In this document: positions 13,537 to 36,080 of the stretch, piece after piece | Layout of the letters: every line of letters begins with the position of its first letter | How positions within the stretch are numbered: the stretch's first letter is position 1 | NCBI GenBank assembly: GCA_947473125.1 | Contig: CANJDH010000042.1 | Coordinates: 1-36,080 of the forward strand | Reading direction: 5' to 3' | Origin: Burkholderiales bacterium | Lineage (GTDB): Bacteria; Pseudomonadota; Gammaproteobacteria; Burkholderiales; JAEUOS01 | DNA: 36,080 nt | Notes under the pieces: model-generated | Databases searched by the model: none | What the model was told of the DNA's origin: nothing | What the model saw: the letters and a program-made list of their open reading frames with translations, nothing else | Translations under genes and position numbers: made by a program

Positions 13537-13620
13537 TGGGATCTGTGCATGAGCGGATGGCGGAATCGGGCGAAGCCCGTGCGGTATAGTTTTCCCTCGT
13601 CGAAAAAACGGACCTCTCCC

Positions 13621-14520
13621 ATGTTGCTCTTCACCCCCCTGCCTGGCCGGTTCGGTGTATCGGTCACCGGCCTTGACCTGCGCGCGCCCCTTTCCGATGC
13701 CGATTTTTCCACACTGCGCGCGGCGTTCGATGAGCATGCGGTACTGGTCCTGCGCGGGCAACCGATCGATGATGGGCAGCAAATTGCCTTTGCGCGCCGT
13801 TTCGGCATGCTTGAGCGTACTCGCCTTGGCGCCCAGGGTCAGGGCAGCGAGTTGTCGATCCTGACCAATATCGGCCCGGACGGCGCCGTCGTGCCACCCT
13901 CGCACCGGCAATGGATCAACACGCTGGCAAACCAGTTGTGGCACAGCGATTCATCGTTCAAGCCAATTCCCGCGCTGGCCTCGATGCTTTCCGGCCGTAT
14001 CGTGCCGGCGCGTGGCGGTGAGACCGAGTTCATCGACATGCGAATGGTCTGGAACGCACTGCCTGATGCCTGGAAGGCGGAAATCGAAGGTTTGGTCGCC
14101 ATGCACAACCTGGCGCACTCGCGCGCGCAGGTGGATCCCGCGCACATGACGGCACAAGAACGGGCAGGCGTGCCGCCGGTGCGCCAGCCGATGGTGCGCA
14201 CGCTGCCTTCCGGTGCGAAGTCCTTGTACATCGGCTCTCACGTCGAAGGCATCGAAGGCATGGCCCAGGAGCTTGCCCGCGCGCTGCTGGCACGCCTGCT
14301 GGCCTTTGCGGCGCAACCTGCGCATGTTTACACCCACACATGGCAACCACATGACCTGCTGATCTGGGACAACCGGTCCACCCTGCATCGGGGGCGCCCG
14401 TTCGAACCGGCGCAGCCGCGCTATCTGGTGCGCGCCACTGTGGCAGGCGACGCACCCCTGCTCGAGCAAGCGCCGGTTGCGCTCGAAGCACACGGCGCAC
14501 GTGAACTGGTGATGCAGTGA
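13621..14520 (+). CDS. TauD/TfdA-family Fe(II)/2-oxoglutarate dioxygenase
   Basis: A 299-residue dioxygenase of the taurine/2,4-D dioxygenase family, which hydroxylates a carbon next to a sulfonate, ether or amine and so splits the bond, using 2-oxoglutarate and O2. The 2-His-1-Asp triad is His108-x-Asp110 (LWHSDSSFKP) and His256 (NRSTLHRGRPF), followed by the 2-oxoglutarate-binding Arg267 or Arg271 (PRYLVRA). The start ATG 13621 matches the family N-terminus (PLPGRFGVSVTGLDLRAPLS); the frame is open to 13549 but that part looks non-coding. It lies 84 bases after the MFS gene and overlaps the GMC gene by 4 bases. In this context it could attack an organosulfur or aryl-ether compound. Confidence 0.92.
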   Translation: MLLFTPLPGRFGVSVTGLDLRAPLSDADFSTLRAAFDEHAVLVLRGQPIDDGQQIAFARRFGMLERTRLGAQGQGSELSILTNIGPDGAVVPPSHRQWINTLANQLWHSDSSFKPIPALASMLSGRIVPARGGETEFIDMRMVWNALPDAWKAEIEGLVAMHNLAHSRAQVDPAHMTAQERAGVPPVRQPMVRTLPSGAKSLYIGSHVEGIEGMAQELARALLARLLAFAAQPAHVYTHTWQPHDLLIWDNRSTLHRGRPFEPAQPRYLVRATVAGDAPLLEQAPVALEAHGARELVMQ

Positions 14521-16130
14521 GCGCCAGCGCGGACTGGGACACCATCATCGTTGGCGCAGGTGCCGCCGGTTGCGTACTCGCTAACCGGCTGACTGCGTCG
14601 GGCCGCCACAAGGTGCTGGTGCTGGAAGCCGGCGGACCCGATAACCGGCTCTGGATCAAGGTGCCGGCCGGTGTCACGCGCACCATGTTTGATCCGGCGG
14701 TCGGCTGGAGCTATGAGAACGCGCCCGCACCGGAAACCGCCGATCGGGCGATACCGTGCCCGCGCGGCCGGGTGATTGGCGGCTCAAGCTCGATCAACGG
14801 CCACCTGTATGTGCGCGGGCAGGCCGATGACTATGCCGATTGGGTTGCCCAGGGTGCGGCGGGCTGGGGCTGGCAGGACGTGCTGCCTTATTTCAGGCGC
14901 GCCGAAACGCGCGCCGGCGGCGACGCTGCCGTGCGCGGTGTGGAAGGGCCGCTCCAGGTGACCGATCCACGCATGCAGCACCCCCTGTGCGAAGCCTTCA
15001 TCAGCGGCATGCAGAGCCTGGGCGAGCCACGCAATCCGGATTACAACCGCGGTGATCAGCACGGTACGGGCTATTACCAATACTTGATGAAAAACGGCCG
15101 GCGCTGGAGTGCGGCCGATGCCTATCTGCGCCCGGCAATTTCGCGTGCCAATCTGAAGGTGGAGATGCACGCGCAGGCCACGCGCATCGTGTTTGAAGGC
15201 CGGCGCGCCGTCGGGGTCGAGTACCGGCGTGGCGGTGCCATGCAGGTGGCACGTGCAGCCTGCGAGGTGATTCTGGCGGGCGGCGCGATCAACTCACCGC
15301 AATTGCTGCAGCTCTCCGGCGTGGGGGATCCTGCCCTGCTGGCGCAGCACGGGATTGGCGTGGTGCAGGCCGTGCCCGGCGTGGGCGAGAATCTGGTGGA
15401 CCACTACGCGGTGCGAATTGCGTCACGAGTGCGCGGCGTCGGCTCGCTCAACGAGCGTACCCATTTTCCGCGTCTGGTGCTCGAAGTGCTGAAGTACATG
15501 GTGGCGCGGCGCGGCGTGCTGGCAAGCGCCGTTGCGCACGCCTACGGTTTTGTTTGTGTGGCTCCAGAGGGTGGCCGGCCCGATCTGCAACTGCTGTTTG
15601 CGCCCGCCAGCTTCCAGGGCGGCAAGATGGGGCGGGCAAAAATGGAAACCGAGCCTGGCATGACCTGCGGTGTGCAGCAGTTGCGCCCCCTGAGCCGCGG
15701 GCACGTGCGCATCCAGGCTGCAGATCCGTTTGCTGCGCCGGTCATCCAGCCCAACTACCTGAAGCACGAGGCCGACGTCGCCACTCTGATTGCCGGGGTG
15801 CACTTCATGCGCAAGCTCTACGCAGCGGCGCCGCTGGCGCGCTATGTAGCGCACGAATCCTGGCCCGGGCCCGATGTGGCGAGCGACGCGCAGCTGGTCG
15901 AGTTTGCGCGCACCACCGGTTCCACCGTGTATCACCCGGTCGGCAGCTGTCGCATGGGCAGCGATGCCGACGCGCCGGTCGATGCGGCGACCTTGCGTGT
16001 CAACGGGTTGGCGGGCCTGCGCGTGATCGATGCCTCGGTAATGCCGTCGATGGTGTCCGGCAACACCTATGCAACCACCATCATGATTGCCGAGAAGGGT
16101 GCCGATCTGGTGCTGGCTGATCAAGGCTGA
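14517..16130 (+). CDS. GMC-family FAD oxidoreductase (choline-dehydrogenase-like)
   Basis: A 537-residue flavoprotein of the glucose-methanol-choline family that oxidises an alcohol. The N-terminal FAD site is TIIVGAGAAGCVLANRL (GAGAAG at 13-18), followed by VLEAGG and the flavin-contact segment GRVIGGSSSINGHLYVRG. The C-terminal catalytic region has YHPVGSCRMGSD, with the active-site His, and the partner Asn in SGNTYATT. It starts with GTG at 14517, overlapping the TauD stop (GTGA), so the two are coupled. It could oxidise the alcohol made by the dioxygenase, which is inference. It ends 4 bases from the convergent Lrp-type gene. Confidence 0.93.
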   Translation: MSASADWDTIIVGAGAAGCVLANRLTASGRHKVLVLEAGGPDNRLWIKVPAGVTRTMFDPAVGWSYENAPAPETADRAIPCPRGRVIGGSSSINGHLYVRGQADDYADWVAQGAAGWGWQDVLPYFRRAETRAGGDAAVRGVEGPLQVTDPRMQHPLCEAFISGMQSLGEPRNPDYNRGDQHGTGYYQYLMKNGRRWSAADAYLRPAISRANLKVEMHAQATRIVFEGRRAVGVEYRRGGAMQVARAACEVILAGGAINSPQLLQLSGVGDPALLAQHGIGVVQAVPGVGENLVDHYAVRIASRVRGVGSLNERTHFPRLVLEVLKYMVARRGVLASAVAHAYGFVCVAPEGGRPDLQLLFAPASFQGGKMGRAKMETEPGMTCGVQQLRPLSRGHVRIQAADPFAAPVIQPNYLKHEADVATLIAGVHFMRKLYAAAPLARYVAHESWPGPDVASDAQLVEFARTTGSTVYHPVGSCRMGSDADAPVDAATLRVNGLAGLRVIDASVMPSMVSGNTYATTIMIAEKGADLVLADQG

Positions 16131-25168: not shown

Positions 25169-26158
25169 TCAATCAGCCTTGATGTTGGCGTCACGGATGA
25201 CTTTGCCCCAACGCGTGTGGTCGTCGCGAATCGTCGCGGCAAGCGCTTCGGGAGTGCTGGTGACCGGTTCGATGCCCTGCAGGGCCAGCGATGCCTTCAC
25301 CTCGGCTGTGCCGAGCAGCTTGATGATGTCGGTGTTCACCTTGCCGACAATCTCCTTCGGTGTATTGGCCGGCATGAACACGCCGAGCCAGATGTCGATG
25401 GCCACGCCCGGCACCGTTTCGGCGATCGCGGGCAGGTCGGGATAGGCGGCAAAGCGCTTGCCGCCGGCGCCGGCAAGCTGGCGCAGCTTGCCGTCCCTGA
25501 TATGCGGGGTGAGCGAGTTGACCGCGCCGATGAACACCTGGATGCGTCCGCCAAGCAGGTCGGTAATGGCGGGGATCGCGCCTTTGTAGGGCACGTGCTG
25601 CATCTGGATCCCCGCTACGTGGCTGAGCATCTCGGCGGCCAGTTGCTGCGGCGAGCCGTTGCCCGAGGAGGCATAGTTGAGCTTGCCAGGATTCTTCTTC
25701 GCGTAATCGACCAGCTCGGCGACGTTATTGGCCGGCACCGAGGGGTGCACCACCAGTACGAAGGGGACGCTGGCTACCGTGGTGACTGGTGCGAAATCCC
25801 TGAACACGTCAAACGGCGTCTTGCCGACATGCGGGTTGGTGACAAAGATGTTGTTGGCGCCGAGCAGCCAGGTGTAGCCGTCCGGCGCGCTCTTGGCGAC
25901 CGCATCGGCGCCCAGGTTCATGCCGGCGCCGGGACGGTTTTCGACCACCACCGGCTGGCCCCAGGACTCGGTGAGCTTTTGCGCGATCAGGCGCGCCACC
26001 ACGTCGTTGCTGCCGCCGGGGGTGATCGGCACGATGAATTTCACCGCGCGCGATGGATAGGCGCCGCCTTGTGCCGGCGCCATGCCGGGCGCGGTGCACA
26101 GCAGCATGGCTGCAGCGGCAAACCCGATGTAGCGCCCGATGTGCCTGCATCGCAACAT
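25169..26158 (-). CDS. Bug-family tripartite tricarboxylate transporter solute-binding protein
   Basis: A 329-residue periplasmic binding protein of the TctC/Bug family. An N-terminal signal peptide (hydrophobic core FAAAAMLLCTAPGMAPA) is followed by the hallmark YPSRAVKFIVPITPGGSND, then VVVENRPGAGMNLGA, APDGYTWLL and VPYKGAIPAITDLLGG. These capture carboxylates or related solutes for TctAB permeases. No tctA or tctB is nearby, as is usual for the many orphan Bug genes of Burkholderiales. ATG 26158 has a strong GAGGAGG Shine-Dalgarno. It is first in an operon with the ThDP enzyme, so the ligand may be that enzyme's substrate. Confidence 0.95.
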   Translation of the reverse strand: MLRCRHIGRYIGFAAAAMLLCTAPGMAPAQGGAYPSRAVKFIVPITPGGSNDVVARLIAQKLTESWGQPVVVENRPGAGMNLGADAVAKSAPDGYTWLLGANNIFVTNPHVGKTPFDVFRDFAPVTTVASVPFVLVVHPSVPANNVAELVDYAKKNPGKLNYASSGNGSPQQLAAEMLSHVAGIQMQHVPYKGAIPAITDLLGGRIQVFIGAVNSLTPHIRDGKLRQLAGAGGKRFAAYPDLPAIAETVPGVAIDIWLGVFMPANTPKEIVGKVNTDIIKLLGTAEVKASLALQGIEPVTSTPEALAATIRDDHTRWGKVIRDANIKAD

Positions 26159-27861: not shown

Positions 27862-28629
27862 TCAACCCACGGCGGCCTTGAGGTCGTCGAGTTGCTTGCG
27901 TACCCCGGCGACCATGCAGTTGATGTCGGAAGTGAGCATCACCAGGTCGAAGCCGCGCTTGATCGCACCGGCGGCAAATGCCGCGCTCACACAATGCATG
28001 CAGGCTTTCTTGCCGTGCTTGTGGGCGGTATCGCGGATCTTGTCGCAGGTGGCCAGGTGCAGTGGGTCGGTGTTGTCCATTTTCGGCGGCAGTCCGAGCG
28101 CGAACGACAGGTCCGACGGGCCGATGTAGATCGCATCGAGCCCCGGCGTGGCGCAGATGGCATCGAGGTTGTCGAGCCCCTCTTTGGTCTCTACCATGGC
28201 GATGACAACGATTTCCTTGTCAGCTTCGGCCAGGTAATCGGCACCGGCATACTGGATCGCGCGAATCGGCCCGGAAGAACGGAAGCCGGCCGGGGGATAG
28301 CGGCATGCCGCCACCGCGCGTGCGGCTTCTGCGGCGGTGCTGACCAGCGGCACGATGACGCTCATGGCGCCCAGGTCGAGCGCTTTCATGATGATCGCCG
28401 GATCATTCCACGGTACGCGCACCACCGGTGAGGTGTCGGTTTGCGAAATCGCCTGGAGCATCGGCAACAACCCGGCCAGTTCGGTGGTGCCGTGCTGCAG
28501 GTCGACGCACAGGGCGTCGAAACCCTGGCGCGCCATCACTTCGGCGGAAAAACTGTTGCCGATGGACAGCCAGCCGAGGGTGACGGGCTTGCCTTCTTTC
28601 CAGAGCTGTTTGATCTTGTTGGGGCGCAT
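27862..28629 (-). CDS. HpcH/HpaI-type class II pyruvate aldolase
   Basis: A 255-residue TIM-barrel aldolase that splits 4-hydroxy-2-oxo acids into pyruvate and an aldehyde, using a divalent metal. The base His46 is in VDLQHGTTE, Arg71 in VVRVPWND, the metal ligands are Glu147 (AMVETKEG) and Asp173 (IGPSDLS), and YPPAGFRSSGP is the conserved loop. Length is normal. It stands alone between a terminator and the divergent SGNH hydrolase gene. It could act at the end of a meta-cleavage or hydroxy-acid pathway, but no hydratase neighbour is present. Confidence 0.92.
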   Translation of the reverse strand: MRPNKIKQLWKEGKPVTLGWLSIGNSFSAEVMARQGFDALCVDLQHGTTELAGLLPMLQAISQTDTSPVVRVPWNDPAIIMKALDLGAMSVIVPLVSTAAEAARAVAACRYPPAGFRSSGPIRAIQYAGADYLAEADKEIVVIAMVETKEGLDNLDAICATPGLDAIYIGPSDLSFALGLPPKMDNTDPLHLATCDKIRDTAHKHGKKACMHCVSAAFAAGAIKRGFDLVMLTSDINCMVAGVRKQLDDLKAAVG

Positions 28630-28754
28630 GGCGGTGTGGGCTTGCGGAGAGGGTCAAAGGAAGTCCCGCAGTTTACTCGACCGGATTGCGCGAGGGCATA
28701 ATGTGCGAAACAGGCGGGCGCTTGCCGGCCCGCCCAAAACCGGAGGAGACCACC

Positions 28755-30095
28755 ATGTTGCGCTTTGTGAAAACTTGTACGGTGCTGGCCGTCGTGGCGG
28801 CATCGCTGGCGGCCACCGCCGCAGACCAACCCGCCAAAACCCACTGGGTGACAAGCTGGGCGGCCTCGGTGCAGGGGCCGTACCCGGTCGGCAACCCGTC
28901 GGCCCAGCCGAACCTGTCGCTGGTGTTTCCGGCACCTGCAAGCGGCGCGCAGGACCAGTCGTTTCGCCTGATCGTCAAGCCCGAGTTGTGGGGCGGTCGG
29001 GCGCGCCTGCGCTTCTCGAATGCGCTCGGTACCCAGCCGGTGACCTTCGACGACGCTTTTGTCGGCTTGCAGTGGTCCGGTTCGGCGGTGCTGCCCGGCT
29101 CCAACCTCGCGGTCACGTTCGGCGGCAAGCGGACCATTACCGTGGCGCCCGGCGCGTCGGTCTGGAGTGATGGCGTCGCGTTGCCGTTCGTGAAGAAGGG
29201 TAACGAGCTGCGCGGCCGCAAGCTGGCGGTGAGCTTCCACGTGGCCGGCAGCAGCGGCCCGATGACCTGGCATGCCAAAGCGCTGCAGTCATCCTACGTG
29301 ACCTTGCCCGGCGCGGGGTCCAAAGGGGCGGATCTGTCCGAAGCTGCCTTCCCGTTTGCCACCGCCTCGTGGTATTTCCTCGATGCGCTCGACATGGTGG
29401 CTCCCAAGGGTACCGGCGCCATCGTCGCGTTCGGCGATTCGATCACGGACGGCACCGCCTCGACCATGAACGGCGACGACCGCTGGCCCGATGTACTGGC
29501 GCGGCGCCTCGGCGCGGCGGCGGGTGCCAAACGCGGCGGCCAGCGCTGGGTGGTAGTCAACGCAGGTATCGGCGGCAACCAGGTGATCGGGCCGAAGGAC
29601 TACTCGCCGCAAATGCCGTTTGCAGGCGGGCCGTCGGCTCTGGATCGGCTCGAGCGCGACGTGCTCAGCCTTTCCGGGGTGAAGGCCGTGATTTGGCTCG
29701 AGGGCACCAATGATTTTTCGAAGAACGGCAACGCCGAAGCCGATGCCGTGATCGCCGGCATGCATGTCGGGGTGACGCGCATCCGCGCCAAAATCCCGGG
29801 GGTCAAGGTGATCGGCGCCACGCTCACCTCGGCGCTCGGCAGCAGCAGCGCCGCGCACGGCTTCGAGTTGCAGGACCAGAAGCGCAAAAAGCTCAACGAC
29901 TTCATTCGCAACGGCGGGCCGTTTGACGGCGTGGCCGATTTCGACCGTGCCACCACCGACACCGTTACCGGCGGCATGAAGGCGGAGTTCATTCCCGACA
30001 ACACCGTCGGCGGCGCGGGCGACAAGCTGCATCCGAACCGCATGGGCTACCAGGCTATGGGGATGGCGATCGATCTGGGCCTGTTCAAGCGGTAG
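28755..30095 (+). CDS. Secreted SGNH/GDSL hydrolase
   Basis: A 446-residue esterase-type hydrolase with a signal peptide (MLRFVKTCTVLAVVAASLAATA), so periplasmic or secreted. Block I is AFGDSITDGT with nucleophile Ser229; block II GGNQ; block III EGTND; block V DKLHPN with Asp423 and His426. The first 200 or so residues form an extra domain (HWVTSWAASVQGP) typical of the SGNH subfamily found in larger bacterial esterases. The ATG at 28755 follows GGAGGAG. It is divergent from the aldolase gene and convergent with the dehydrogenase gene. It may de-esterify a plant or polymer substrate (unproven). Confidence 0.92.
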   Translation: MLRFVKTCTVLAVVAASLAATAADQPAKTHWVTSWAASVQGPYPVGNPSAQPNLSLVFPAPASGAQDQSFRLIVKPELWGGRARLRFSNALGTQPVTFDDAFVGLQWSGSAVLPGSNLAVTFGGKRTITVAPGASVWSDGVALPFVKKGNELRGRKLAVSFHVAGSSGPMTWHAKALQSSYVTLPGAGSKGADLSEAAFPFATASWYFLDALDMVAPKGTGAIVAFGDSITDGTASTMNGDDRWPDVLARRLGAAAGAKRGGQRWVVVNAGIGGNQVIGPKDYSPQMPFAGGPSALDRLERDVLSLSGVKAVIWLEGTNDFSKNGNAEADAVIAGMHVGVTRIRAKIPGVKVIGATLTSALGSSSAAHGFELQDQKRKKLNDFIRNGGPFDGVADFDRATTDTVTGGMKAEFIPDNTVGGAGDKLHPNRMGYQAMGMAIDLGLFKR

Positions 30096-30106
30096 CGGCG
30101 TCGCGC

Positions 30107-30991
30107 CTACGCGCCCTTGTGCTGCTGCACGTGGGCGTACATCGCCGTGTGATCGGCGCCCGCGCCCAATGCCGCGTCGGCCTCGCGCCAGCGTGCCACG
30201 CAGGCGTGGGCGAAGTCTCCGGGTGCGCGCATCTGGTCGATGAACCCCGCGGCGGTTTCCAGGTCCTTGCGCATTAGCGACAGGGCAAACCCCGAGTTGA
30301 ACGCACCCGAGAGCATGAAAGGCACGACCTTGTTTTCGGTGGTGTTGTTCTTGCCCGTGGACGCGTCCATCACCTGGTTGACGACTTTCGGGTCGATGCC
30401 GAATTTTTCGGCGGCGGTGAGCGCCTCGCAGACCGCGAGCAGGCCGGCGGCCGACACGTAGTTGTTTAGCGCCTTGACCGCATGGCCGGCGCCGGCCGGG
30501 CCGACGTGAACCAGCGTCTTGCCCAGGGAACTGAGCAGCGGCCGCGCCGCGTCGACATGCGCCGCGTCGCCGCCCATCATGATCGCCAGCGTGCCGCTGA
30601 CGGCGCGCTTGACGCCGCCTGATACCGGCGCATCCACAAAGCGCAGGCCCAGGGCCGCCAGCTTTGCGGCGTTGGCCTGGCTGTGCAGCGGATCGGACGA
30701 GCCCATGTCGATGAGCAGGGCGCCGCTGCGCATGTGCGAGGCAAAGCCGTCGTCCCACAGCAGGCGATCGACGATGCCGCTGTCGGGCAGCATGAAAATC
30801 ACGACGTCGCAGGCGCCGGCGATGTCGTGCGCGGCGGCAACCCGCGTGAACGAAGCGTGGTCGCGCAGCGTCGCGCCGGCGTTGGGCTGGACGTCAAACC
30901 CGGCCACCGCATGCCCGGCCGCCAGCAGGTTGGTGGCCATGGGCACACCCATCATGCCGAGCCCGATGAAGCCGATTGAAGTGGCAGACAT
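30107..30991 (-). CDS. 3-Hydroxyisobutyrate-dehydrogenase-like NAD(P) oxidoreductase
   Basis: A 294-residue beta-hydroxyacid dehydrogenase. The dinucleotide site is IGFIGLGMMGVPMATNL (GLGMMG at 10-15); the substrate loop DAPVSGG occupies 120-126; the catalytic Lys173 is in GAGHAVKALNN; the C-terminal helical domain has a typical GFALSLMRKDLETAAGF segment. Substrates in the family include 3-hydroxyisobutyrate, tartronate semialdehyde and related acids. ATG 30991 is chosen; an upstream start at 31051 would add 20 residues with no family match. It is convergent with the SGNH gene and divergent from the Bug operon. Confidence 0.92.
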   Translation of the reverse strand: MSATSIGFIGLGMMGVPMATNLLAAGHAVAGFDVQPNAGATLRDHASFTRVAAAHDIAGACDVVIFMLPDSGIVDRLLWDDGFASHMRSGALLIDMGSSDPLHSQANAAKLAALGLRFVDAPVSGGVKRAVSGTLAIMMGGDAAHVDAARPLLSSLGKTLVHVGPAGAGHAVKALNNYVSAAGLLAVCEALTAAEKFGIDPKVVNQVMDASTGKNNTTENKVVPFMLSGAFNSGFALSLMRKDLETAAGFIDQMRAPGDFAHACVARWREADAALGAGADHTAMYAHVQQHKGA

Positions 30992-31086
30992 GCGTGGAGT
31001 CTCCGTTGCGTAAAGTAGGGGTGACGGGGTTTTACCATGCCGCTTCGACATCCTTCATGCCGCGCCTGCCGGGCGCCGGAGTTTCC

Positions 31087-31115
31087 TTGACAAGGCCGGG
31101 CCCCGCCACCATAAT
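31087..31115 (+). promoter_or_regulatory. Strong sigma70-type promoter of the Bug/amidohydrolase operon
   Basis: TTGACA (31087-31092), a 17-base spacer, then CATAAT (31110-31115): a perfect -35, optimal spacing, and a -10 with one mismatch. Transcription would start near 31122, leaving a leader of about 60 bases before the ATG at 31184. It is the clearest housekeeping promoter that I see in the window. Confidence 0.75.
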
Positions 31116-31183
31116 TTTCCGACGCTGCCCACCGCCCGGTTGCCGCAAAACAATAACGCAATGACGATTCGAGAGGCAGCGCA

Positions 31184-32200
31184 ATGCAATCAAAAGGGGA
31201 CAAGATGCAGAATTGCCGTTTGCGCCTGATGCGCAGCCTGATGACCGTGCTCGCCCTGTGCTGGCTTGCGCTGGCAGCGCAGCCGGTGCTGGCGCAGGCG
31301 CCCAAATATCCGAACCGACCGATTCGCATCATTGTGCCGGTGCCGCCCGGCGGCGGTGTGGATCTGCTGGCGCGCACCATCGGCGCCAAGATGTCCGATC
31401 GCCTCGGCGTGCCGGTGCTCATCGAGAACCGCCCCGGCGCCAGCGCCGCGATTGGCACTGAGATGCTGGCCAAGGCCGCACCGGATGGCTACACCATCAT
31501 GATGGGCTACACGGTGCACGCCACCAATGCGTTGTTCAACCCCAAGCTGCCCTACGACACGCTCAAGGATTTCCAGCCAATCGCGTATGTCTGCTACATC
31601 CCGCTGGTGCTGGTCACGCCGCCGGCGCTGCCCGCCAATTCGGTGAAAGAACTGATCGCGCTGGCCAAGGCCAAACCGGGCAATCTGTCGTACGCATCGG
31701 GCGGGGCGGGGGCCGGCGCCCATCTGTCGGGCGAGCTGTTTCGCTACCTTGCCGGCGTCGACGTGACGCACATTCCCTACAAGGGCAACGGCCCGGCGAT
31801 CACCGATCTGCTCGGCGGGCAGGTGAGCATGCTGTTCGATACGATCACGACCTCGATTCCGCACATTCGCGCCGGCAAGATGAAGGCGCTCGCGGTGACC
31901 AGCCGCAAGCGCTCATCGCTTACGCCCGAGCTGCCGACCATGATCGAGGCCGGCCTGCCCGATTTTGAAGTCTCGGGCTGGTACATGATGCTGGCACCGG
32001 CCGGCGTGCCGCGTGACATCCTCAGTTTGCTCAACGCCGAAGTCAACGTGGCGATCAAGGATCCGGCCATCGGTGCCAAGCTTGCCAGCCAGGGCGTCGA
32101 GTGGGAGGGCGGATCGCCCGAGCGTGCCGAGCAATTCCTGCGCAGTGAAATGACGCGCTGGGGAAAGATCATCAAGGAAACCGGCATGAAAGCCGACTGA
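31184..32200 (+). CDS. Bug-family solute-binding protein
   Basis: A 338-residue periplasmic TctC/Bug-type binding protein. The signal peptide core is LMTVLALCWLALAAQPVLAQA, followed by YPNRPIRIIVPVPPGGGVD, LIENRPGASAAIG, APDGYTIMM and IPYKGNGPAITDLLGG. ATG 31184 has GAGAGG upstream; ATG 31205, with AGGGGA close before it, would give a more usual signal-peptide length. It leads an operon with an amidohydrolase (20-base gap), an SDR and a CoA ligase, so its ligand is probably the carboxylic acid degraded by these enzymes. No TctAB genes are adjacent. Confidence 0.95.
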   Translation: MQSKGDKMQNCRLRLMRSLMTVLALCWLALAAQPVLAQAPKYPNRPIRIIVPVPPGGGVDLLARTIGAKMSDRLGVPVLIENRPGASAAIGTEMLAKAAPDGYTIMMGYTVHATNALFNPKLPYDTLKDFQPIAYVCYIPLVLVTPPALPANSVKELIALAKAKPGNLSYASGGAGAGAHLSGELFRYLAGVDVTHIPYKGNGPAITDLLGGQVSMLFDTITTSIPHIRAGKMKALAVTSRKRSSLTPELPTMIEAGLPDFEVSGWYMMLAPAGVPRDILSLLNAEVNVAIKDPAIGAKLASQGVEWEGGSPERAEQFLRSEMTRWGKIIKETGMKAD

Positions 32201-32220
32201 ACACAGGACGCCGACTGCAC

Positions 32221-33084
32221 ATGCATATCATCGACCTGCATTCCCACTGGGGCACCAAACGCGGCTACGTGCTGCGTACCGAGGCTGAGCTGGCGCGCCA
32301 GCGCCAGACCTGGAACTCCGACCCCGCCTATCAGACCGAAGCTGAAATGGCCGACTACCTGCGCAGCCAGAAAGTGCGCACCATTCTCGACTTCGGTTTC
32401 ACCAAGCACATGCCGCTCGAAGAGGCGCGTGAATACCACGACTACGGCATCGAGACCCAGCGCAATCATCCGGATGCCATCCTCGGCCTGTGGCTGCAGA
32501 TCGATCCGCGCACTGGTGCGGCCGGGGTAGCCGAGTTGCGCCGCTGCATCGAGGCGAGCAGCGGCTTTATCGGCCTGGCACTCTCGGGCGGCAGCGGCTA
32601 CACCGCGAGCGATCCGATCCACAAACCGTTTCTCGACGTGTGCGCCGAAGCCGGGCGCCCGGTGTTGGTGTTCGTCGGCTACACCGGCGCCGGCGCCGGC
32701 CTGCCCGGTGGTGGCGGCATCCTGCTCGACATGTGCCACCCGCGCTACATCGACGAGCTCGCCGCCAAGCGCCCCGAGCTCACCATCATTTCGGCCCGCC
32801 CGGCCTGGCCCTGGCAGGACGACATGATCGCCGTGATGCTGCACAAGCCCAACGTCTGGGCCGAGCTGCACGGCTGGTCGCCGAAATATTTCACCGAGTC
32901 GCTCAAGTACGACATCCCGCGCCGCCTCAAGAACCGCACCATGTTCGGCGCCGACTATCCGCTCTTCAAGTATGAACGCCTGGTGGCCGACTGGCGCGCG
33001 TTGGGCTACGACGAGGCTATCCTCAAGAAGGTGTTCCACGAAAACGCCGAGCGCCTGCTCGGCACCTTCCTGCAGGCCCCCTGA
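32221..33084 (+). CDS. Amidohydrolase-2 family hydrolase/decarboxylase
   Basis: A 287-residue TIM-barrel metal enzyme of the amidohydrolase_2 (ACMSD-like) group. The metal-binding His7-x-His9 (IIDLHSHWG) is on strand 1 and Asp245 on the last strand (MFGADYPLFKYERL). Further His residues (for example in HDYG and MCHPRYI) may complete the site. Members decarboxylate aromatic acids or hydrolyse lactones. It lies 20 bases after the Bug gene and 1 base before the SDR gene, so it is clearly part of the operon. The precise reaction is unknown. Confidence 0.88.
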   Translation: MHIIDLHSHWGTKRGYVLRTEAELARQRQTWNSDPAYQTEAEMADYLRSQKVRTILDFGFTKHMPLEEAREYHDYGIETQRNHPDAILGLWLQIDPRTGAAGVAELRRCIEASSGFIGLALSGGSGYTASDPIHKPFLDVCAEAGRPVLVFVGYTGAGAGLPGGGGILLDMCHPRYIDELAAKRPELTIISARPAWPWQDDMIAVMLHKPNVWAELHGWSPKYFTESLKYDIPRRLKNRTMFGADYPLFKYERLVADWRALGYDEAILKKVFHENAERLLGTFLQAP

Positions 33085-33085
33085 C

Positions 33086-33898
33086 ATGGATCTGGACATC
33101 AAGGCCAAGCGCGCCATCGTCGGCGGCGCCAGTCAAGGCATCGGCTATGCGATCGCGCGCCTGCTCGCCGCCGACGGCGTACAGGTGGCGATGGTGGCGC
33201 GGCGCAGCGAGCCGCTCGACCAAGCTGTGGCGCGCATCCACAACGAGACCGGCACGCGCACCCTGGCGATTCCGGCCGACATCCGCAAGGCGTCCGATTG
33301 CGAGCGCATCGTTGATACGGCCGCCGAGGCGTTCGGCGGCATCGATTTTCTGGTCAACAACGACGGCGCGCCGCCGCTCGGCTTGATCGCCGAATTCGAT
33401 GATGTCGCGTGGGACAAGGCGGTGCAGCAAAACCTGATGAGCGTGGTGCGCCTGTCGCGCCACGCCATTCCGCACATGAAGGCGGCCGGCGGCGGACGCA
33501 TCGTCAACATCACTGCGCTCTCGGCGATCCAGCCGATTGCGCGCTTCGGACTCTCGGTGGCCACCTGGGCCGGCGTGATCGGCTTCGCCAAGACGCTCTC
33601 GCTCGAAGTGGCCGCCGACAACATCACCGTCAACACCATCTGCCCAGGGCGGATTGCCACCGGCCGGCTCGCCAAGGTGTTCGGGCCGGATGCCGGCAAG
33701 GGCGCTCCCGCAGCCGATGCCGCGAGCGATGCCGACGCGAAGCTCGCCGCAGATCTCGCCAAACAGATTCCCCTCGGCCGGGTCGGCCAGCCCGACGAGA
33801 TTGCCGGGTTGGTGGCGCTGCTGCTCTCCGGCTACGGGGGTTACATCACCGGCTCGACCATGCATGTCGATGGCGGGCGTCTTGCAGGCCTGTTATGA
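33086..33898 (+). CDS. Short-chain dehydrogenase/reductase, atypical active site
   Basis: A 270-residue Rossmann-fold SDR. The cofactor loop is GGASQGIG (residues 13-20), and ARRSEPL after strand 2 suggests NADP preference. NNDGAPP stands where NNAG is usual. The region where Tyr-x3-Lys is expected reads LSVATWAGVIG (from Leu156): neither Tyr nor Lys is there, the aligned positions being Ser157 and Trp161. The ending GGYITGSTMHVDGG is conventional. A divergent SDR subgroup has this kind of change; it may use another proton donor or have a non-redox role. The ATG at 33086 is 1 base after the amidohydrolase stop, and the stop overlaps the ligase ATG. Confidence 0.9.
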   Translation: MDLDIKAKRAIVGGASQGIGYAIARLLAADGVQVAMVARRSEPLDQAVARIHNETGTRTLAIPADIRKASDCERIVDTAAEAFGGIDFLVNNDGAPPLGLIAEFDDVAWDKAVQQNLMSVVRLSRHAIPHMKAAGGGRIVNITALSAIQPIARFGLSVATWAGVIGFAKTLSLEVAADNITVNTICPGRIATGRLAKVFGPDAGKGAPAADAASDADAKLAADLAKQIPLGRVGQPDEIAGLVALLLSGYGGYITGSTMHVDGGRLAGLL

Positions 33899-35304
33899 AG
33901 ATCAATTACGAACAAACCTTCCCCCACTATTCGCGCTCGCTCGATTTCGAGCAGCTGGTGCGCGACTATCCGCCGCCGCCAGAATATTTCCAGAGCGTAA
34001 TGCGCATGCCGCGCCACGAGCTCGACGCCCTCAAAAACAAGCGCTTTCTCGCCACCGTCAAGCGCGGCTGGGAGATTCCGTTTTTCCAGAAGCACTGGGG
34101 TGCTGTCGGTCTTGAGCCCGGCGACATCCGCAGCATTGCCGACATCGAGAAGATTCCGCCCTACACGGTGCACGACATCCGCAAGAGTCTCGAGCGCAAT
34201 CCGCCGTTCGGCGATTTCATGGGCATTGCCCCCGGCGGCGACAACCCGATCCCGCTGGTGCTGCATACCAGCGGCGGCACCACGGGCCTGCCGCGGCCGA
34301 TGCTCTATGCGCCGCAGGATCGCGAAACCATGACCATCCTGAGCGCCCGGCGCTACGCCATGCAGGGCATGGTGCCCGGCGACAAGGTGCTGGTGGCGCT
34401 CTCGCTGGGCCTCTCCAACGGCGGCTTTGCCGCGCGCGATTGCCTCTGGAAATACATGGGGGCCGTGCCGGTCATGACTGGCGGCGGCTCGTCGACGCCG
34501 ACGCGCCGCCAGATTGAGATCATCAAGGCCTGGGGCGTCAATTACATCCTCGGCTTCCCCGCCTACCTGCGCCACATGGCGATCGTGGCGCGCGACGAAC
34601 TCGGCATCGACCCACATTCGCTGGGCATCAAGGCGCTCGGCTCGCACATCGGCGTCGAAGACCGCACCAAGATCGAGGCGCTCTGGAACGCCGACTGCTA
34701 CGACTCCTACGGCACCAACGAGAGCGGCATGATGGCGCAGGACTGCGAGTTCAAGAACGGCATGCACATCAACGAAGACGCCGTGCTGCTCGAAATCGCC
34801 GACCCGGAAACCGGCAAGCTGCAACCCGAGGGCGAGAAGGGCACCATCTACATCACCACCTTCTATCGCTACGGCGCCCCGCAGATCCGCTTCAATGTCA
34901 ATGACATTTCGGCGATCATGCCCGGCACCTGCGAATGCGGCAGCACCCACAAGCGCCTCGAAAAGATCTTTGGGCGCAACGACAACATGGTCAAGCTGCG
35001 CGGTGCCAATGTCTTTCCCGAGGCGATCGGCGTCGCGGTCGCCGAAGATGCACGCTCCAATGGCGAGTTTTTCTGCATGGTCGACCGTGTCGGCGAAGAT
35101 GCGCGCGATGAAATGGTCGTGATGGTCGAACTGCGCGATCCGGCGGCCGATGGCGCCGCCGTCAAGACCGACCTCGAGCGCCGCCTCAAGGAAGTGATCG
35201 GCGTGCGCGTCACAGTGGAGCCGGCGGCCATCGGCGACCTCGACCAACACACCGGGACCTCGCAGACTTCCAAGATCAAGCGCCTGCTTGACAGGCGCAA
35301 GTAG
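33895..35304 (+). CDS. AMP-forming acyl-CoA ligase (phenylacetate-CoA ligase-like)
   Basis: A 469-residue adenylate-forming enzyme of the PaaK type, expected to activate an aromatic or cyclic carboxylic acid to its CoA thioester. The phosphate loop is LHTSGGTTGLPRPMLY; the A5-like motif is YDSYGTNESG; CECGSTHKRLEKIFGRNDNMVKLRG, written here only as landmarks from its CxCG start to its KLRG end, covers the hinge; the C-terminal small domain ends with TSQTSKIKRL carrying a Lys near the usual catalytic position. The ATG overlaps the SDR stop (ATGA). It completes the four-gene operon; the substrate is unknown. Confidence 0.9.
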   Translation: MKINYEQTFPHYSRSLDFEQLVRDYPPPPEYFQSVMRMPRHELDALKNKRFLATVKRGWEIPFFQKHWGAVGLEPGDIRSIADIEKIPPYTVHDIRKSLERNPPFGDFMGIAPGGDNPIPLVLHTSGGTTGLPRPMLYAPQDRETMTILSARRYAMQGMVPGDKVLVALSLGLSNGGFAARDCLWKYMGAVPVMTGGGSSTPTRRQIEIIKAWGVNYILGFPAYLRHMAIVARDELGIDPHSLGIKALGSHIGVEDRTKIEALWNADCYDSYGTNESGMMAQDCEFKNGMHINEDAVLLEIADPETGKLQPEGEKGTIYITTFYRYGAPQIRFNVNDISAIMPGTCECGSTHKRLEKIFGRNDNMVKLRGANVFPEAIGVAVAEDARSNGEFFCMVDRVGEDARDEMVVMVELRDPAADGAAVKTDLERRLKEVIGVRVTVEPAAIGDLDQHTGTSQTSKIKRLLDRRK

Positions 35305-35311
35305 CGCGGGG

Positions 35312-35932
35312 TCAGACTATGGGTGCCAGTGCGGACGCCACCGCACGCCGGGTCTGTTCCGGCGTGGTGACGTGGTAGCCGGCCAGGCCGACAGCGCGCG
35401 CAGCGGCAACGTTTTCAGGCAGATCGTCGAAGAAGGCGATGCGTCCCGGCGCAATGCCGATCAGGCTGCACACCTTGTCAAAGGCTGCAGTGGACGGTTT
35501 GCGCAGGCCCAGCTCTTGCGAGCAGAATACCTGGCGCACGGGGGCCAGCAGTTCCGGATACAGCGAGCCCCAGCGCGCGTAGTGCAGGGCATTGGTGTTG
35601 GAGAACAGGTAGACCGGCGTGCTCGCAGCCGCTTCGCGCAACAGCGGCAGCACGCCGGGAATCTCGCCGCGGAAGATCGCGCACCAGCCCGCATCGAATA
35701 CCGCATCCGGCAGATCAATTCCGAGCGACTGGCGCAGCGCGGCGAAATACTCGGCAGCGCTGATTTCACCGCGCTCGTGGGCCTCATAGGCGGCGTCCTG
35801 GTGAAAGCGTTGCGCGATGCTTTCGACCGGTACGCCGGCGCAGTCGGCCCAGTGCCGGAACGCATACCGGAAATCGACGTCGATCAGAACGCCGCCGACG
35901 TCAAACAGCAAAGCCTCTATCGGGCGCGCCAT
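35312..35932 (-). CDS. HAD-family hydrolase (subfamily IA, YihX-like)
   Basis: A 206-residue phosphatase-type HAD protein. The nucleophile Asp11 is in LLFDVGGVLIDVD; Gly13 replaces the second Asp of the DxD pair, as in YihX and epoxide-hydrolase N-domain relatives. Motif II is VYLFSNTNA, motif III the Lys in LGLRKPS, and motif IV IAFFDDLPENV. A helical cap lies between residues 17 and 85. Substrates may be sugar phosphates. It is convergent with the ligase gene (7-base gap) and follows the partial propeller gene by 13 bases, suggesting an operon. Confidence 0.9.
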   Translation of the reverse strand: MARPIEALLFDVGGVLIDVDFRYAFRHWADCAGVPVESIAQRFHQDAAYEAHERGEISAAEYFAALRQSLGIDLPDAVFDAGWCAIFRGEIPGVLPLLREAAASTPVYLFSNTNALHYARWGSLYPELLAPVRQVFCSQELGLRKPSTAAFDKVCSLIGIAPGRIAFFDDLPENVAAARAVGLAGYHVTTPEQTRRAVASALAPIV

Positions 35933-35945
35933 TGCCGCCGCGGGC

Positions 35946-36080
35946 TCATTGCATCCGCACGTGCTTCACCAGTTGCCGCGGGCCGACTTCGCCGCCGTAG
36001 ACATTGCCCTTGGCATCCACCGCCACGCCCTCGGCGGCGCTGGTACCCTTCATCTCGAGCGGATCGGGGATGCGGTACAG
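35946..36080 (-). CDS. C-terminus of an NHL/SMP-30-type beta-propeller protein (partial)
   Basis: Only the last 44 codons lie inside the window. They read SAAEGVAVDAKGNVYGGEVG and then a short tail RQLVKHVRMQ. The AEGVAVDAKGNVYGGEV repeat is the typical blade of NHL-repeat or SMP-30/gluconolactonase-like propellers (for example peptidyl-alpha-hydroxyglycine lyase relatives). The rest of the gene lies beyond 36080. It would be transcribed together with the HAD gene. Confidence 0.65.
   Translation of the reverse strand: MYRIPDPLEMKGTSAAEGVAVDAKGNVYGGEVGPRQLVKHVRMQ

Follow-up and report, generated by a model that had tools for sequence, protein, structure and literature searches.

In this paper we looked at a four-gene operon in a 36,080 nucleotide (nt) stretch of DNA from a Burkholderiales bacterium (GenBank assembly GCA_947473125.1, contig CANJDH010000042.1; the whole stretch is called the window here). 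The operon encodes a Bug/TctC solute-binding protein, a protein of the Amidohydro_2 family (AH; residue numbers given for it are those of the window protein), a short-chain dehydrogenase/reductase (SDR) and a PaaK-like acyl-coenzyme A (acyl-CoA) ligase. What is observed directly is the order of these genes, the conservation of that order, a set of residue swaps and the correlation between them. As far as sequence can tell, the conserved and coordinated loss of residues in two of the three enzymes points to unstudied chemistry. The explanation that we prefer, and hold with somewhat less than even confidence, is that the operon would serve the catabolism of one organic acid through CoA activation, a redox step and a hydrolytic cleavage by AH that is likely of the retro-Claisen type. 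The public annotation of these genes is generic (amidohydrolase family, SDR family, phenylacetate--CoA ligase family), and such names hide that two of the three enzymes are without the catalytic residues which the names imply.

Residue replacements in the amidohydrolase and the SDR

The metal/catalytic site of ACMSD-type amidohydrolases consists of an HxH motif on strand β1, a His on β5, a His on β6 and an Asp on β8. In the window AH, His7, His9, His173 and Asp245 are present; the β5 His is replaced by Phe151 and the β6 His by Arg193, and an extra His, His217, is found on β7. A set of 58 AH sequences was aligned and then reduced at 97% identity to 47. Arg193 appears in 30 of the 47, the window protein included, and all 30 also have His217, His173, His7, His9 and Asp245. 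His193 appears in 17 of the 47, with Ser217 in 17/17, His173 in 5/17 and the β5 His in 13/17. The combination of Arg193 and His217 is thereby carried by 30/30 clade members against 0/17 relatives outside the clade, and four more His193-type sequences from annotated plasmids (loci L105-L108) also show Ser217. With regard to the ACMSD-type site, the Arg193-type proteins keep the HxH and the Asp throughout (30/30), the β6 His in no case (0/30) and the β5 His in one (1/30, from the Streptomyces locus L056), the latter being lost in 29/30. The Arg193 group forms one side of a branch with a support of 100/100 and, judged from this tree, the Arg193/His217 swap is of single origin. The change of His193 to Arg together with that of Ser217 to His suggests that the catalytic base was shifted by one strand. 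The original prediction had described this protein as a metal hydrolase or decarboxylase; its place in the amidohydrolase family stands, and the term metal hydrolase needs correction, as two of the usual metal/catalytic-site histidines are missing.

The AlphaFold model of AH has a mean predicted local distance difference test score (pLDDT) of 80.5, with local values of ~50 at residues 151-170 and 64 at 191-200. In this model strands β5, β6 and β7 end at 151, 194 and 217, which would place the swapped residues at the active-site positions of the superfamily. The nearest solved structures in VIA-align, the order of which is used here (Foldseek's own ranking puts 3nur first and 3irs at rank 24), are 3irs (Z 23.0) and 3cjp (Z 20.9), both uncharacterised, followed by dihydroxybenzoate-type decarboxylases at Z ~20-21. 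The 3irs protein (BB4693) has Met and Ala aligned at the places of the β5 His and the β8 Asp and is another altered amidohydrolase site. The genome of the window also holds a His193-type AH paralogue, 36% identical (G000:C58; L048, 8287-9165), which lies near Bug genes and, by eye, near FAD-monooxygenase-like and thioesterase-like genes. A local expansion of five Arg193-type AH genes is seen in genome G1146 (L088, L091, and L096).

The window SDR keeps the Rossmann cofactor motif (GGASQGIG) and the NNxG motif (NNDG) of classical SDRs, and NNDG is invariant across 15 aligned SDR sequences, the window's included. Analysis of its Asn-Ser-Tyr-Lys tetrad indicates that Asn116 is kept and that Ala144, Ser157 and Trp161 replace Ser, Tyr and Lys. 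Ser157 and Trp161 are conserved in 8 aligned SDR sequences. The SDR had been predicted to be unusual, and the replacement of three of four catalytic residues goes beyond that claim. SDR matches within 5 kilobases (kb) of AH genes were collected with three SDR queries, by which more distant SDRs could be missed. It was found that 24 of the 25 SDRs linked to an Arg193-type AH are without the YxxxK motif (near-duplicates included), and that YxxxK is kept in 7/7 of those linked to a His193-type AH and likewise in three further ones (L105, L107, and L108). One of the 24, that of L098, shares only 30% identity with the SDR of the window. The exception with YxxxK, in L086, lies 2.7 kb off on the opposite strand, shows 31% identity and has its AH at a contig edge. 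The predicted model of the window SDR is modest (pLDDT 71.2). The SDR of PDB entry 5va8 (E 4.1e-37), which we take to be from Burkholderia, likewise has neither Tyr nor Lys in the alignment, the two positions being Ser and Arg in it and Ser and Trp in the window SDR; the loss of YxxxK is therefore not unique to this operon. The residue swap in AH (30/30 against 0/17), combined with a partner SDR that has lost its catalytic pair, makes a compact case of coupled active-site change.

In the ligase, the AMP-binding motif, YGxxE, the A10 lysine and the AMP-binding_C_2 domain of PaaK-like ligases are all intact, and the A10 Lys is present in 19/19 aligned ligases, the window's included. Among PDB entries it matches PaaK best (E 1.2e-55), followed by 2-hydroxyisobutyryl-CoA ligase (HCL; E 1.3e-41), and it shares the family and the motifs with both; yet it reaches 191.9 bits against the cut-off of 646.3 for the NCBIfam PaaK equivalog TIGR02155, and it has Ser where PaaK has Phe and HCL has Tyr. 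A review names Tyr164 and Ser239 as the unique acyl-pocket residues of HCL (PMC8388817). With the HCL chain numbering shifted by 11, as inferred from where Tyr and Ser fall, Tyr164 of HCL corresponds to Ser174 of the window ligase and to a Phe in each of three PaaK sequences. Across the 19 ligases this site is occupied by Ser, Gly, Ala or Thr. The acyl pocket may be wider at the Ser174 position than in PaaK. The proposed aromatic or alicyclic substrate is not supported, as the single pocket position that was checked is not PaaK-like. Among the loci with AH, L015 (1299-6076) has a Bug gene beside AH that is flanked on both sides by a PaaK-like ligase, with 55% and 66% identity to that of the window.

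The Bug protein has Bug27, BugD and a terephthalate-binding protein as PDB relatives. Binding proteins are greatly expanded in this genome, with no fewer than 150 TctC/Bug genes (of 245 candidates from a first look, 150 were scored; two examples in the window lie at 25169-26158 and 31184-32200), against 3 matches to TctA, permease genes that are located elsewhere in the genome. Because of this number a Bug gene beside enzymes is uninformative by itself, and Bug was rejected as a guide to the substrate.

Operon layout, gene neighbourhood and promoter

The four genes are arranged head to tail on the plus strand with junctions of a 20 nt gap, a 1 nt gap and a 4-nt ATGA overlap, which agrees with their description as tightly packed, and as a gene arrangement the operon is genuine (Table 1). 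The Bug gene has an alternative in-frame ATG at 31205, which like the first one is preceded by a plausible ribosome-binding site as judged by eye; a signal peptide was likewise recognised by eye.

Table 1. Positions of the operon, its promoter and its upstream neighbours in the window
Feature	Position	Strand	Basis
Sigma-70-like promoter, TTGACA-N17-CATAAT	31087-31115	+	11/12 consensus match; 68 nt from its end to the first ATG
Bug/TctC solute-binding protein	31184-32200	+	Pfam TctC E 3.5e-76, 256.8 bits against a cut-off of 27
Amidohydro_2 TIM-barrel protein (AH)	32221-33084	+	Pfam PF04909 E 1.9e-27, 97.3 bits against a gathering cut-off of 26.4
SDR	33086-33898	+	Pfam adh_short_C2 E 2.1e-52
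PaaK-like acyl-CoA ligase	33895-35304	+	AMP-binding motif, A10 lysine, AMP-binding_C_2 domain
3-hydroxyisobutyrate/tartronate-semialdehyde-reductase-like gene, divergent, upstream of the operon	30107-31051	-	Pfam NAD_binding_2 and NAD_binding_11
GDSL/SGNH esterase, signal peptide by eye	28686-30095	+	Pfam Lipase_GDSL_2

Conservation of the neighbourhood, which had been put forward as a check, proved to be strong. AH, SDR and ligase genes have the same order and strand in 13 of the 18 AH-relative loci from genome contigs (L006-L014, L016, L017, L020, and L023). These are not 13 independent cases, because L008-L014 and L023 are close kin and the matches of L007 and L020 are identical. In the remaining five, the SDR gene is divergent (L015), the ligase and AH genes occur without an SDR gene (L018, L019, and L022) or the locus begins at a contig edge (L021). 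The full Bug-AH-SDR-ligase order exists in four distinct loci, namely L006, L007 (with matches equal to those of L020), L084 and L085, with the Bug gene directly upstream of AH at 53%, 58%, 67% and 74% identity, respectively. The entire operon is retained at 67-78% identity in L084 and L085, and L007/L020, which carry the full window-type operon, are labelled alphaproteobacterial. Variovorax sp. SRS16 has these four gene types in a different arrangement, SDR-ligase-Bug-quinone oxidoreductase-AH. The richest source of homologues was the family of genome G605, where AH was found at E 1e-60 in 12/98 genomes; at the same threshold it was found in 4/399 genomes of the order (own included) and 1/398 of the phylum (own only), and at E 1e-40 in 4/369 genomes of the class, own genome included.

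Linkage was then surveyed for 29 dereplicated Arg193-type AH genes, the window's excluded, by their neighbours within 4.5 kb. A PaaK-like ligase is located near 18/29 (two share one ligase, L091), and 6 more are near a match to an AMP-binding ligase of another kind (L056, L062, L087, L093, the second copy of L096, and L097). The matches of L093 and L097 are only 23-24% identical, and these two and the one of L096 are on the opposite strand. An SDR match is found in 16/29, 14 of these being close to the window or the Streptomyces SDR. The ligase type can vary while AH and SDR stay linked, as in L087 and Embleya L062, the ligases of which are of a different AMP-binding type. In Streptomyces L056 AH is preceded by two pieces of such a ligase, which are unannotated and possibly a broken gene. 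One alphaproteobacterial lineage (L018, L019, L021, and L022) has no SDR match and has a dehydrogenase of the Ldh_2 family after AH, at 43-48 nt in L018, L021 and L022, with TRAP transporter genes near AH in L018, L019 and L022. This variation of the dehydrogenase family, with Ldh_2 in place of the SDR, suggests a redox function for the slot that the SDR occupies. The ligase and AH make up the common core of these loci, often joined by a dehydrogenase as the third member, and the transporter is variable. Because AH relatives elsewhere share their clusters with a CoA ligase and an SDR, either alone or accompanied by a transporter of the Bug or TRAP kind, it is a good interpretation that an acid is taken up and activated with CoA. 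In this the original prediction is supported, whereas these data do not support the aromatic or alicyclic nature of the acid, the claim of a complete upper pathway or the relevance given to the promoter.

The predicted near-consensus promoter does exist and is the best in the window, being the sole one to reach 10/12 when both strands of the 36,080 bases are considered. A site of at least 11/12 is present in 2.5% of 200 dinucleotide shuffles of the whole window, and on the plus strand in 1/3000 shuffles of the 132-nt intergenic stretch. With a threshold of 9/12, the region 28500-36080 has 2 sites, where shuffled sequences give a mean of 1.0 (sd 1.2); as this count is close to the mean, only the high score of the promoter is unusual. 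Before the Bug match no site of at least 9/12 exists within 500 nt in L006, L084 and L085, and L020 has a single 9/12 site at 231 nt, distances in these loci being measured from the start of the BLAST match and not from a mapped start codon. With four orthologous operons that are without a comparable site upstream of Bug, the importance of a strong promoter for the system is not supported; it was rejected as the main point and seems to be a feature of the window locus. The predicted absence of an adjacent regulator is correct for this locus, the neighbours of which are the divergent dehydrogenase-like gene and, downstream, a convergent HAD gene. Regulator genes do adjoin related clusters (LysR in L018, IclR in L020, and an HTH gene in L055).

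Two neighbours of the operon are possible accessories with a weak link to it. L016 and L022 carry genes like 3-hydroxyisobutyrate dehydrogenase, 31-33% identical to the divergent gene, at 2.5 and 4.3 kb from AH, and in L018 the distance is greater. A 63-64% identical GDSL gene directly follows the ligase in L011 and L013; with 2/18 loci and a GDSL family that is widespread, this is no more than a hint that the esterase belongs to the pathway. A single case of an HpaI aldolase (42%) is found in L084. In L096 (7422-10480) a match to CoA-transferase III and, by eye, a CitE/HpcH-like lyase gene directly precede AH-SDR-ligase on the same strand, a gene set that could possibly be a longer pathway. 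Elsewhere in the window (13549-16130) the genes for a TauD-family dioxygenase and a GMC oxidoreductase share a 4-nt overlap and are possibly a separate catabolic pair.

A possible pathway and its alternatives

One of the questions raised by these data regards the reaction that the operon performs. In the mechanism that we prefer, Bug would bind the acid in the periplasm and deliver it to a TctAB permease whose genes lie in another part of the genome. The ligase, with intact motifs and by analogy with its family, would form the acyl-CoA. The SDR, still built for NAD(P), would perform or assist a redox step without the usual Tyr-Lys pair, and AH would then cleave the activated intermediate with water, most likely by retro-Claisen C-C hydrolysis of a β-ketoacyl-CoA. 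The role of the β6 His would have moved to His217 on β7, and Arg193 may hold the carboxylate or the thioester oxygen. A further-reaching possibility, which we consider rather doubtful, is that AH and the YxxxK-less SDR are a co-evolved pair with chemistry new to both superfamilies: a base moved from β6 to β7, and an SDR that binds NAD(P), does without the proton relay of Tyr and Lys and has a CoA-activated acid as its substrate, the two enzymes perhaps being joined in a complex. If such a pair works, it would be a new reaction type for the CoA-dependent breakdown of organic acids.

Several observations weigh against the retro-Claisen pathway. AH is only 28% identical to an annotated CouO-like protein, and because its clade is without the β6 His and has lost the β5 His in 29/30, its reaction need not match that of CouO-like relatives. 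Five of the 29 Arg193-type AH genes surveyed (L021, L086, L088, L094, and L098; three at a contig edge) have no ligase match nearby, and all ten rows of one subclade have no nearby SDR match. A Tistrella relative of the ligase (38%) adjoins amidase and MmgE/PrpD genes and no AH, and the window operon is without a thiolase, hydratase or acyl-CoA dehydrogenase gene.

Another option, which we regard as unlikely, is that AH is a non-oxidative decarboxylase of the ACMSD/dihydroxybenzoate decarboxylase type that takes the free acid as its substrate, either ahead of CoA activation or following it, with the SDR reducing or oxidising the product. Beyond the uncharacterised 3irs and 3cjp, its best fold matches are indeed 2,3-dihydroxybenzoate, 5-carboxyvanillate and related decarboxylases (Z ~20-21), and the invariant Arg193 at the end of β6 could hold a carboxylate. 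However, ACMSD/dihydroxybenzoate-type decarboxylases use a full site (HxH/ExH, β5 His, β6 His, and β8 Asp), of which AH misses both the β5 and the β6 His; the fold likeness is general to the superfamily, and closer sequence relatives of AH are found in CoA-ester contexts. The loss of part of the metal site would fit with a lactone/ester route, in which a metal-independent AH would open a lactone to a hydroxy acid for the SDR to work on, followed by activation through the ligase; LigI is an example of a metal-independent amidohydrolase. Esterase genes are also in the vicinity, with the GDSL esterase near the window operon and beside the ligase in L011 and L013, and a carboxylesterase or tannase/feruloyl esterase adjoining His193-type relatives. 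Yet the COG3618 structures (4dlf, Z 19.7; 4do7, Z 19.4) score slightly below the decarboxylases or are tied with them, and this route appears quite unlikely.

It is less probable again that the SDR, AH or both are pseudoenzymes, which act as structural or regulatory partners (for example in an AH-SDR complex) and leave the ligase as the sole classical catalyst. Ser, Tyr and Lys of the tetrad are missing in most SDR homologues surveyed, and the AH and SDR genes are close together, with gaps of 12-24 nt between BLAST matches in 17 loci (near-duplicates included). On the other hand, the replacement residues are conserved (Ser157 and Trp161 in 8 sequences; Arg193 and His217 in 12 and in 30), as expected of a working site, and some loci seem to have a redox gene from a different family in place of the SDR. 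An ordinary upper pathway for an aromatic acid, as originally predicted, with a phenylacetate-like substrate of the PaaK type and standard chemistry, would agree with PaaK as the best PDB match of the ligase (E 1.2e-55). We find it improbable, as the score of 191.9 bits falls below the PaaK cut-off of 646.3, the PaaK Phe position is Ser/Gly/Ala/Thr in these ligases, and neither AH nor the SDR is standard.

Comparison with known systems

The closest described kind of system is the module of a CoA ligase and a CouO/HpeF-type amidohydrolase in hydroxycinnamate and acetovanillone catabolism. Relatives of AH at 28-35% identity are found in a feruloyl-CoA synthase cluster with a gene annotated as 4-hydroxyphenyl-beta-ketoacyl-CoA hydrolase, and others at 28-35% in clusters of biotin carboxylase, HAD and acetoacetate-CoA ligase genes. 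According to the report on the cou pathway of Rhodococcus jostii RHA1, CouO is an enzyme of the amidohydrolase superfamily that performs the last step of hydroxycinnamate β-oxidative deacetylation, after CoA thioesterification (by the ligase CouL) and β-oxidation of the side chain (PMC4737184). The window operon differs by an AH of the Arg193/His217 clade, an SDR without YxxxK and a PaaK-type ligase, and it has no acyl-CoA dehydrogenase or hydratase.

In Rhodococcus GD02, the report on the acetovanillone pathway describes HpeE and HpeF as a CoA synthetase and a CouO-like hydrolase that acts on a β-keto acid, lists the β-ketoacyl-CoA hydrolase as 95% identical to CouO and names the CouO sequence as WP_011597356.1 (PMC9618137). 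In comparison, the window operon is without carboxylase and phosphatase genes, its ligase belongs to another family and its AH site is unlike that of homologues in similar clusters. The comparison of AH with CouO/HpeF was made through an annotated relative (28%) and the homologues in similar clusters. Clusters of Acidovorax DW039 and Sphaerotilus D-507 have the same four component types (Bug, SDR, AMP-ligase, and amidohydrolase), but their SDR has YxxxK, their ligase is of another type and their AH has the β6 His and a β1 HxY; they additionally hold an esterase, a thiolase and two enoyl-CoA hydratases. In literature searches of partial coverage, no published description of this operon or of the Arg/His swap was recognised. 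The use of a CoA ligase, a dehydrogenase and an amidohydrolase for an acid is already known, and the doubly remodelled version appears to be the new part.

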